Positions 17,422 through 20,279 of a DNA stretch of 64,000 nucleotides are shown here, in pieces (the first letter of the stretch is position 1; each line of letters begins with the position of its first letter). Below the pieces are notes generated by a model that did no database searches, was not told where the DNA came from, and saw only the letters and a program-made list of their open reading frames with translations. Origin of the DNA: Thermofilum sp. (lineage in GTDB: Archaea; Thermoproteota; Thermoprotei; Thermofilales; Thermofilaceae); contig JAVYKX010000002.1 in NCBI GenBank assembly GCA_038741495.1, forward strand, positions 322,541 to 386,540. Direction: 5' to 3'. The translations under genes were made by a program, and so were the position numbers.

Positions 17422-20220
17422 CTAGTGTAGAAGGATGTAAATCCCCGCTGCGATTAAGACTAGCCCGATCAGTAAGTCAATGTACCTCCTGTAAGGCGAC
17501 AGCCGAACGACTGCGATGTCTATCTCCGCGACGAACCTCTGCCCCACGACGACTGCGAAGGCTATCAGGATAAGAGGTAGCACGAAGACGGTGTTGTAGA
17601 GCAGAAGGTAGGCGAGAGCCACTGAGAGAGGTAGGCCGGAGAGCATGTAGGAAGCGACGAGGTAGGGACCGCTGCTGCATGGAAGCAGTGTGAAGCTGAC
17701 GAGCACGCCTGCGGCTGCCCCTGCCACGACGCTGCCTTTACGCGCTCTCTCCAGGAAGCTCTGGCCCACCGCGTTGATCCTGCTTCTGGCTCTCTGCAAG
17801 CTCACGTACACAACACCCAGCCTCGAAGCTGAGAGTTCCAGGCTGAGTGCGCGCCTCACGAATCTGGCTACACGATTAAAGGAGGTGGCGCGAGCAACAC
17901 CGCTGAGCGTGGTGTGCGTGGCTCTCATGCCTTTAAAGGCTTCGTACCCCCCTGCGAGCACTGCTGCTGCTCCAACCAGGTACCGCGCCCACGAAAAGTA
18001 GCCAACGAAGTTCACTAGCCCTAGGCCAAGGAGAAAGTAGCTGATAAAAACTGCAGCGACGAACGCAACAGCTACTTTAGCAGCAGCCCCTCTCCCCGAT
18101 ATTCCCGCTACAGATAGGAGCAGCGCCGCGAAAACCATGAAGGTACAGGGGTTTATCGAATCTGCGGCAGCGAGCGCTAAGACCGCTCCGAGAATAACTC
18201 CGCCCGCAGCTTGCAAGCCTTTTTCCCGACGTCCCCCGAAGACCATGTCGAATACTTCGGAAGCGTTAACCGGGACCCTCACCATGCTTCCATCGTCCCG
18301 GATCACCATAGCCGAATCACCGCACTGCGCGGAAAGCAGGTTCCGCCAGGCGGCAGGGTCTCTGGGGTCGCCCGCAGCTGCAGCTACCAGGCACTTTCCT
18401 TGGAAAATGAGCGTCAGGGGGATTACGTAAGAAGACCCTGCTTTCAGAGTCTCGTAGAGCTGGTAGTAAGTCTCCAGGTTGCTTCTGTTCGAGATTTCCC
18501 TGAAGATGGGCTGGAGCCCAGCTTGCTCAAGCCTCTCCTTCACCTCCCTGCATGAAGGGCAGGTCTCGGAGCCGTAAATCACTACTGTGAGGTTGCTGGC
18601 CTGTACGGCGTTTTCCCCGCCCTTACCGCTGGATTCGTTCTGCGCTACTTCGACAGGGTACGGAACCAGGTAGATGAAGACCTCGAGGTCTGCGCGTACG
18701 TCCAAGGTTCTAGTGGCATTAGCTCTTCTCCCGACAACCCTTACCTCGTAGGACCCGGGAGGGACTTGAACAACCAGCGCGCCAACACCCCTCGCAACTA
18801 CAGAGGAGTTCCTCACAAGCAGGATCTCGGGTTGAGGTGCATCGAACTCTTCAGCTTGAACAGAAACCTTGAACCTAACCCTCTTGAGAACAACGAGCAG
18901 GTTTGTCCTACCCGACACGTTAGCGTCAAGCACGGCTGGCTGAAAGCCAGGTGCTAACACCTGCAATCTGTGGGGACCAGAAGAGGTGTTGATAAGCAAG
19001 CTACCCGTGAAAACCCCGAGGGGCTGCCCGTCGAGGATAACCGTGTAGTTGCTCACCGGGGCTCCTTGCTCATCCAGAACGTTCAGAGCGATCTGAGGGG
19101 GTAGCGTCGGCTCGGCTTTCAAGTCGTATACCATTACCTCGCTCGTACCTGCTACGGTCAGCACCCGGTCGCGTACATCCACGCTGGTGACCGCGAAGCC
19201 GGGTTTCACCACCCTCAGCTTTACCTCCTCCGCAGCGTTTCCCACGACGACCGTGTCCCTAGACCATACTACAAACGAGCCATCGTCAAAGCCCCGCAGC
19301 CCCAGCTCGTCACCTTTCTCGTAAGGCAGGGGTAGAACGCTCGAGATCACCCTTCCCTTGGCAGCGTCCACCACGGTAAGCCGCACTGAAAGCTCCTCTG
19401 TCGTGAGCGAGTACAGTAACCGGTAGTTAGGCTCTGAGGCTGTTAGCCTACCGGCAGGCACTGAGAGAGCGTAGAGAGGGGAGAAGGAAATTTCGTTGCC
19501 TACGCTCAGCTGGAGAAGCGTTCCGTTATCCGAGAGAAGAGCAGCTTTCTCGCCTAGGTTAACCATTAGGAGAACGTGGTAAAGTGTACTCTTCCTCATG
19601 CCGTCAGGTTCTAAGACCACTAAAGCTCTCTCATTGTTCATCAAGCAGATGTGGCAGTTCGTATCTATCGATAGCACGATCAGCTTCTCGCCGCTGCGCA
19701 GCATCTGGAGCCCAGCGTTAGCGAAAGCGAGTACCACGCGTGGCTCTTGCGCCGTTGCTATGCTCAGGACTACCAGCTCCCTCTTTGTGAGAACATAAAG
19801 CGTGTCTCCCAGGAGAACAGCTTTTACGATCTCCGGGCTTCTAACCCCACCTCTAATTACGCCCACGTATTTCTCCCTCCCGGTTTTCGCGTCGAGCAGC
19901 GTGACTCTCGAGCTTGGAACACTACCGTAGAGCTGCTCGACAGCAACGAGAAGGCTATCGTCGACGAATCTGACGGAGGAGAAGAAGGCTAGCTGCCTGG
20001 TCCACAGCGGTTCGAGCCCACTACCGTACAAGCTGAGGAATGACCGGTAGTTATCGCCGTAGACAACCGCCAGGTAGTCTCCGCTAGGGCTGAGAACAGC
20101 GCTGAACACTGTGTAGTTGAAAGTAAGTTTTCCTCGAGGAACCCACTCATCAGGGATAGCATACGCCACCATTAGCAGAGCGAAAACGAGAGCAGTTGTT
20201 AAGGCGAGGGTAAGTCTCAT
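17422..20220 (-). CDS. Exported beta-propeller / glutaredoxin-like / CcdA-DsbD-like membrane redox protein
   Basis: A 932-residue protein. ATG 20220 starts a clear signal peptide (MRLTLALTTALVFALLMVAYA). About residues 25-370 form a propeller with a CHIC motif (Cys189, Cys192); about 380-530 hold carboxypeptidase-regulatory-like sandwich repeats; about 545-640 is a glutaredoxin-like domain with GSETCPSCREV (Cys554, Cys557). The C-terminal 260 residues have about six membrane helices and match CcdA/DsbD, including the paired cysteines in DSINPCTF and TLLPCSSGP. CcdA-type proteins carry electrons from cytoplasmic thioredoxin across the membrane, so this single chain probably delivers reductant to the outside. 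It is a paralogue of the protein at 7.2-9.8 kb in its propeller part. It is divergent from acnX. Confidence 0.85.
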   Translation of the reverse strand: MRLTLALTTALVFALLMVAYAIPDEWVPRGKLTFNYTVFSAVLSPSGDYLAVVYGDNYRSFLSLYGSGLEPLWTRQLAFFSSVRFVDDSLLVAVEQLYGSVPSSRVTLLDAKTGREKYVGVIRGGVRSPEIVKAVLLGDTLYVLTKRELVVLSIATAQEPRVVLAFANAGLQMLRSGEKLIVLSIDTNCHICLMNNERALVVLEPDGMRKSTLYHVLLMVNLGEKAALLSDNGTLLQLSVGNEISFSPLYALSVPAGRLTASEPNYRLLYSLTTEELSVRLTVVDAAKGRVISSVLPLPYEKGDELGLRGFDDGSFVVWSRDTVVVGNAAEEVKLRVVKPGFAVTSVDVRDRVLTVAGTSEVMVYDLKAEPTLPPQIALNVLDEQGAPVSNYTVILDGQPLGVFTGSLLINTSSGPHRLQVLAPGFQPAVLDANVSGRTNLLVVLKRVRFKVSVQAEEFDAPQPEILLVRNSSVVARGVGALVVQVPPGSYEVRVVGRRANATRTLDVRADLEVFIYLVPYPVEVAQNESSGKGGENAVQASNLTVVIYGSETCPSCREVKERLEQAGLQPIFREISNRSNLETYYQLYETLKAGSSYVIPLTLIFQGKCLVAAAAGDPRDPAAWRNLLSAQCGDSAMVIRDDGSMVRVPVNASEVFDMVFGGRREKGLQAAGGVILGAVLALAAADSINPCTFMVFAALLLSVAGISGRGAAAKVAVAFVAAVFISYFLLGLGLVNFVGYFSWARYLVGAAAVLAGGYEAFKGMRATHTTLSGVARATSFNRVARFVRRALSLELSASRLGVVYVSLQRARSRINAVGQSFLERARKGSVVAGAAAGVLVSFTLLPCSSGPYLVASYMLSGLPLSVALAYLLLYNTVFVLPLILIAFAVVVGQRFVAEIDIAVVRLSPYRRYIDLLIGLVLIAAGIYILLH

Positions 20221-20279
20221 CCAGAGCCCGAGGTGTAGCAAACCAAACCCCTATTAACCTTTGACTCCACGTATATGCC

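Follow-up and report, generated by a model that had tools for sequence, protein, structure and literature searches.

A Thermofilum protein that joins a beta-propeller, a glutaredoxin-like domain and a CcdA-type membrane domain: a candidate for an outward thiol-disulfide relay

The window, by which we mean the whole stretch of 64,000 nucleotides analysed here (Thermofilum sp., contig JAVYKX010000002.1, positions 322,541 to 386,540), carries on its reverse strand a gene for a multidomain membrane protein. Its features are as follows, in window coordinates.

17422..20220 (-): coding sequence of the fusion protein, propeller-PEGA-Ig-glutaredoxin-CcdA, 932 aa, ATG at 20220, stop at 17422-17424; orthologues over the full length in five further species of the genus
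20155..20220 (-): N-terminal signal sequence or anchor helix, residues 1-22 (hydropathy; model helix 2-20)
19111..20148 (-): predicted beta-propeller, residues 25-370 (AlphaFold strands 26-367; Foldseek to 7-8-bladed WD40-type propellers)
19645..19662 (-): TxCxxC motif of the propeller, residues 187-192 (T-N-C-H-I-C), where a short helix begins (190-194 in the model)
18886..19095 (-): PEGA or carboxypeptidase-regulatory-like domain, residues 376-445 (PF08308, 23.0 bits, cut-off 20.8; model strands)
18667..18873 (-): second Ig-like beta domain, residues 450-518 (model strands; its counterpart in the fusion of genome G008 matches PF13620)
18238..18600 (-): glutaredoxin-like domain, residues 541-661, predicted extracytoplasmic (PF00462; glutaredoxins in a PDB profile search; A. 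fulgidus Grx-1 in Foldseek; sequons)
18550..18561 (-): glutaredoxin active-site motif CPSC, residues 554-557, both cysteines invariant in all aligned fusions and Grx-CcdA sequences
17425..18228 (-): CcdA-homologous domain of six transmembrane helices (TM), residues 665-932 (hhalign against a canonical CcdA set; helices)
18145..18153 (-): NPC motif (Cys692) at a break in TM1, invariant and aligned with canonical SPC
17677..17685 (-): LPC motif (Cys848) at a break in TM4, invariant and aligned with canonical APC
17734..17925 (-): basic TM3-TM4 loop, residues 766-829, with 13 Lys/Arg and 2 Asp/Glu, predicted cytoplasmic

An alternative start, TTG at 20241, lies upstream of the ATG and would give a protein of 939 residues. 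The neighbours of the gene in the window encode AcnX (aconitase X), a glycogen synthase and an APH-like kinase; this synteny is conserved, and a functional link through it was rejected because the AcnX and glycogen genes have no evident redox meaning. In four other genomes (G001, G005, G006 and G011) the genes adjoining the fusion gene were assigned by eye to a TadA-like secretion ATPase and to two membrane proteins that resemble TadC/GspF (locus L035, 9536-12837). Such genes are absent from this place in the window genome.

The full-length AlphaFold model, built from nine sequences, is of moderate quality and low global confidence (mean pLDDT 72.9, pTM 0.43). Between residues 26 and 367 it shows about 30 short strands, and WD40-type propellers of seven to eight blades are among its better matches to the PDB in Foldseek. 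By this model the N-terminal part of the protein is a propeller of approximately seven to eight blades. The glutaredoxin-membrane part was modelled separately from 19 sequences and reached a pLDDT of 84, better than the full-length model. Foldseek matched it to glutaredoxins of the PDB with modest E-values, Grx-1 of A. fulgidus first; the 50 matches listed fall on the glutaredoxin part, and no solved CcdA structure is among them. Scanned alone, the same part matches PF00462 of Pfam (E 3e-5, 24.5 bits, cut-off 22.9), and a profile search against the PDB relates the glutaredoxin-like domain to glutaredoxin and thioredoxin structures. A phmmer search of the PDB with the whole protein gave weak, chance-like matches only. 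The hallmarks of a glutaredoxin are found: the CPSC motif lies before and in helix 555-566, and a proline precedes strand 3 (IPLT or VPLT), P601 being nearly invariant. Two further cysteines of this region, Cys610 and Cys633 (window 18322-18393), occur together in the proteins of the window and of genome G003 and are both absent from the other fusions; this pairing suggests an extra local disulfide.

The membrane domain is recognised by neither Pfam nor NCBIfam. Up to an E-value of 1, the window protein shows no hit to the Pfam family DsbD_TM (PF02683), and the only PF02683 match of its genome is another protein. We therefore used profile-profile comparison, which is more sensitive than a Pfam match to PF02683. 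With hhalign, the domain aligned over its whole length (204 columns) with 13 canonical CcdA proteins of its own and related genomes, at 96.7% probability and an E-value of 3.2e-10, with NPC placed on SPC and LPC on APC. The six fusion members alone gave 96.2%, whereas the controls, a CcdA alignment in reverse and two multi-TM families without relation to CcdA, gave 0.1-0.2%. In the model of the glutaredoxin-membrane part, helices TM1 and TM4 break at the NPC and LPC cysteines. On sequence evidence we class the membrane domain as homologous to CcdA, TM1 and TM4 each carrying one redox-type cysteine. A second, canonical CcdA (SPC/APC) is encoded elsewhere in the same genome (contig C1; locus L001, 793-2043, reverse strand), beside a protein with NPCBM-associated NEW3 repeats.

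The first-pass annotation, made from the DNA letters alone, had read a propeller, a glutaredoxin-like domain and a CcdA/DsbD-like domain in one polypeptide, and this is borne out by the AlphaFold and PDB comparisons, by PF00462 and by hhalign. The six cysteines it had named are present at CHIC 189-192, CPSC 554-557, NPC 692 and LPC 848. Its length of 853 residues was wrong, and its list of domains was correct for those named and incomplete, since it had passed over the PEGA and second Ig-like domains between propeller and glutaredoxin.

The proposed topology is supported by two features of the sequences. Each ectodomain has 9-22 N-x-S/T sequons, compared with 2-7 in shuffled sequences (z 4.9-6.8), and each membrane domain 0-1. 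The predicted inner loops TM1-2, TM3-4 and TM5-6 carry positive charge; of these, the TM3-4 loop is longer in the window protein than in most relatives. Both observations support an external propeller-PEGA-glutaredoxin region and an N-out/C-out arrangement of the CcdA domain, and the glutaredoxin-like domain is thus presumably extracytoplasmic.

Of the other six genomes of the genus, five hold full-length relatives of 36-39% identity; the remaining one is 81% complete. This recurrence over the whole length indicates that the architecture is not a product of chance. Three more fusions belong to two further genera (G008, G013 and G011), which makes nine in all. In G013 the fusion falls on two contigs with almost identical overlapping ends, and we therefore treat it as one gene. 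None of the nine fusions, which had been found without selection for cysteines, lacks a cysteine of the glutaredoxin CxxC, of NPC or of LPC, and the propeller CxxC is present in all eight fusions that cover the propeller and in the N-terminal piece of G013. Glutaredoxin, NPC and LPC cysteines are likewise invariant in all 19 aligned Grx-CcdA sequences. The Grx-CcdA module is widespread in archaea, and found in some bacteria, as a separate protein of about 400 residues. The 80 loci collected in the alignment-based scan of genome contigs came up in part by their NPC or LPC patterns, so that their cysteine content is not independent evidence. Conservation of all six cysteines had been named earlier as a check on the reading, and it holds wherever the respective part is sequenced. 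Loss of the membrane cysteines in relatives and a cytoplasmic glutaredoxin-like domain had been named as outcomes that would speak against it: the former are conserved in the fusions and in the 19 Grx-CcdA sequences alike, and sequons and loop charge place the latter outside. In two Grx-CcdA relatives (loci L021 and L018, genomes G030 and G036) two tandem CxxC glutaredoxin-like stretches precede the membrane domain.

The propeller also exists on its own. With a propeller profile (alignment A2, then A4) we found standalone proteins of 658-729 residues in ten genomes (G009, G010, G012, G014-G017, G019, G023 and G025; a stretch of G016 is masked in its record). They consist of a signal, the propeller, PEGA or carboxypeptidase-regulatory-like domains, a C-terminal TM and a basic tail, without glutaredoxin or CcdA, and every one of them carries T-[FL]-C-x-x-C-[ILV]. 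Among 12 aligned propellers, fused or standalone, with 15-40% identity to that of the window, conservation is complete at three positions only, the T and both C of TxCxxC, and the motif was seen again in six more standalone propellers outside this alignment. These two results point to constraint on the motif and not on the scaffold. The motif often has the form CHxC with a nearby CH or YH (region of window residue 214), and the third cysteine and the histidine near it are not conserved. A heme-c site was considered for the propeller and rejected, since the motif is CHxC and not CxxCH. Among the 398 genomes of the phylum that were searched, the CxxC propeller is confined to the order Thermofilales, which agrees with the earlier impression that a propeller with CHIC was new; the one weak match outside the order (G331) is a reading frame without the motif. 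In three genomes (G017, G023 and G025; loci L131-L133) the standalone propeller gene adjoins a gene for an HtrA/DegP-like protease with a PDZ-like end, assigned by eye.

Nearly all of the ten genomes with a standalone propeller hold a separate Grx-CcdA of about 400 residues. Counted over the class, a Grx-CcdA match, whether fused or on its own, is present in 18 of the 19 genomes with a propeller (in G012 over the glutaredoxin part only); this co-occurrence is phylogenetically clustered and the genomes are not independent. The exception is G019 (84% complete), in which the propeller is present and no Grx-CcdA was detected. Conversely, G022, G024 and numerous outgroups have Grx-CcdA but no propeller, so that a propeller is not strictly required as a partner. 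A widespread Grx-CcdA reductase and an order-specific propeller, found both split and fused, make the window protein a Rosetta-stone fusion. Fused and standalone states require two changes on the propeller tree, the deep branches of which are unresolved, so that one or more fusion events are possible.

The genome also encodes possible partners in the cytosol. A PDO is found at C1:40333 (215 bits, above cut-off) and a TrxR-like protein at C1:348702 (294 bits, below the NCBI curated cut-off of 343). The separate Grx-CcdA gene of G017 and that of G025 are each directly preceded, at a distance of at most about 100 bp and on the same strand, by a TrxR-like gene (L013, 217-1299 and 1390-2577; L011, 258-1316). 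A Pacearchaeota record (L121) shows a CcdA-like gene followed about 40 bp on by a TrxR-like gene. The classical task of CcdA, cytochrome-c maturation, is unlikely and was rejected because none of the seven genomes of the genus yields a match to the assembly protein Cytochrom_C_asm (PF01578).

We propose that the window protein is an outward membrane thiol-disulfide relay of the DsbD kind, with the propeller in place of the alpha domain, and assign this reading a probability of roughly 60%, based on sequence comparison. Electrons of cytosolic NAD(P)H would reach PDO or thioredoxin through the TrxR-like enzyme and would then be passed to the CcdA-type membrane cysteine pair Cys692/Cys848, from there to the CPSC of the external glutaredoxin domain (554/557), and finally to the CxxC of the external propeller (189/192). 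The propeller would either hand the electrons on to substrates at the cell surface, as the terminal distributor, or itself be the main client that is kept reduced. The direction of electron flow, the step from glutaredoxin to propeller and the final substrate are what we infer here. In other lineages of the order the separate membrane-anchored propeller would presumably be served by a separate Grx-CcdA; in the genus of the window the two are joined. The route had been described as self-contained; this is true in part only, since the relay still needs a cytosolic reductant, for which the genome holds the PDO and TrxR-like genes.

Propellers are common scaffolds, and the main rival explanation lets the relay stop at the glutaredoxin: the TxCxxC motif would be a structural disulfide or a zinc or copper site, and the propeller-PEGA ectodomain a docking or surface scaffold near the reductase. 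A CHxC motif with a nearby CH or YH would also suit metal binding, and in many genomes Grx-CcdA does without a propeller. What the propeller of the DsbB homologue DsbI does is not known (PMC4460558). However, a propeller in which T, C and C are the sole invariants at such low identity would be unusual for a mere scaffold, the variation of the nearby third cysteine and histidine weakens the case for a fixed metal site, and the fusion partner resembles a thiol reductase. We consider this explanation rather unlikely. The same components could also work inward, taking electrons from surface thiols into the cell and thereby providing the missing disulfide-forming, i.e. oxidising, route for exported proteins. 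Matches to VKOR and DsbB (PF02600) are indeed absent from the genus, VKOR being present in two genomes of other families (G028 and G029). Inward flow is nevertheless improbable in view of the TrxR-like gene, an electron donor, that adjoins Grx-CcdA in relatives, of the outward movement of electrons in CcdA/DsbD relatives (PMC4460558), and of the fact that no quinone-linked component was seen.

Very improbable, finally, is a membrane domain that acts as an exporter of the LysE superfamily (SfLAP-like), with glutaredoxin and propeller acting on its cargo. SfLAP (PF11139) is the best Pfam match of several relatives and exceeds the cut-off in G008; SfLAP and DsbD_TM both belong to the LysE superfamily. 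Against the exporter reading, the invariant NPC and LPC cysteines align with the redox cysteines of canonical CcdA, and two bacterial Grx-CcdA members match DsbD_TM.

The first-pass annotation had the bacterial parts spread over DsbD or CcdA plus partner proteins; that bacteria always keep them on separate proteins would be incorrect, since DsbD is itself a fusion (in E. coli, of an alpha domain, a beta domain with eight TM and a gamma domain) and Grx-CcdA fusions occur in bacterial genomes too. Like DsbD, the window protein combines in a single polypeptide an external domain of thioredoxin fold, an electron carrier in the membrane with two cysteines in its TM, and an external all-beta domain with a further cysteine pair, and the predicted order of electron flow, from TM to thioredoxin or glutaredoxin fold to beta domain, is equivalent. 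In DsbD, electrons are transferred from thioredoxin via the beta, gamma and alpha domains (PMC4460558). By position in the cysteine chain, CcdA would correspond to beta, glutaredoxin to gamma and the propeller to alpha, with homology for the CcdA/beta pair only. The two proteins differ in the number of TM (six against eight), in the external fold (glutaredoxin-like against a thioredoxin-like gamma domain) and in domain order, which is propeller-Ig-glutaredoxin-TM, with glutaredoxin N-terminal to the TM, against alpha-TM-gamma. Plain membership of DsbD was rejected: an alpha domain is lacking, residues 25-518 are propeller and PEGA/Ig without a match to the alpha-domain family, and the DsbD families of Pfam and NCBIfam have no match in the window protein. 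ScsB, a DsbD-class protein, has a domain organisation close to, though not the same as, that of DsbD (PMC4460558).

With CcdA itself (H. pylori HP0265 and the canonical protein of the same genome) the window protein shares the homologous 6-TM domain with redox cysteines of TM1 and TM4 in register. It differs in its motifs (DSxNPC and LPC against SPC and APC), in bringing its own external redox domains and in the lack of a cytochrome-c assembly gene in the genus. The stand-alone Grx-CcdA proteins (Thermoproteota, Bathyarchaeota, Methanocalculus, Acetothermia/Bipolaricaulota and CPR) share the module of glutaredoxin CxxC and NPC/LPC at about 26-36% identity, but are without propeller and PEGA/Ig domains. 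DsbI of epsilonproteobacteria, a DsbB-like membrane domain with a C-terminal beta-propeller (PMC4460558, PMC5403849), likewise couples disulfide handling in the membrane with an external propeller in one protein. It is set apart, by description, through its DsbB-type membrane domain, the propeller at the opposite end and its oxidative pathway; membership of DsbI was rejected because the genome has no DsbB match. Grx-CcdA alone is thus already known and DsbI is a precedent for a propeller fused to a disulfide membrane enzyme, while our searches of open-access papers found no description of the propeller-PEGA-Grx-CcdA fusion or of the TxCxxC propeller.

Because a surface propeller with a conserved cysteine pair is joined to a glutaredoxin and a CcdA-type carrier, the window protein looks like a home-grown counterpart, in a hot-spring archaeon, of bacterial DsbD. 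If the propeller cysteines accept electrons from the glutaredoxin, it would be a convergent DsbD with equal relay logic and a different terminal domain. A further, more tentative proposal, which we hold to be somewhat below even odds, is that the TxCxxC propeller of Thermofilales may be an undescribed non-thioredoxin redox domain, the dedicated terminal electron acceptor or distributor of an archaeal cell-surface reduction pathway that would exist in fused and split forms and would have arisen independently of bacterial DsbD, where neither VKOR nor DsbB is found. To our knowledge, thiol management on the cell surface of archaea without a periplasm is poorly known; a defined protein, a defined partner in the TxCxxC propeller and the split and fused versions make the pathway testable. 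One more gene recurs in the vicinity of these systems: a radical-SAM protein, AmmeMemoRadiSam-like by eye, adjoins TrxR in Thermofilum G005 and also in G020, and a relative of it lies beside Grx-CcdA in other archaea, divergently in L051 and L056 (loci for these arrangements: L177, 281-1399; L051, 4694-5767; L056, 4716-5771; L057, 1321-2379). A functional link of this protein with the thiol pathway is possible.
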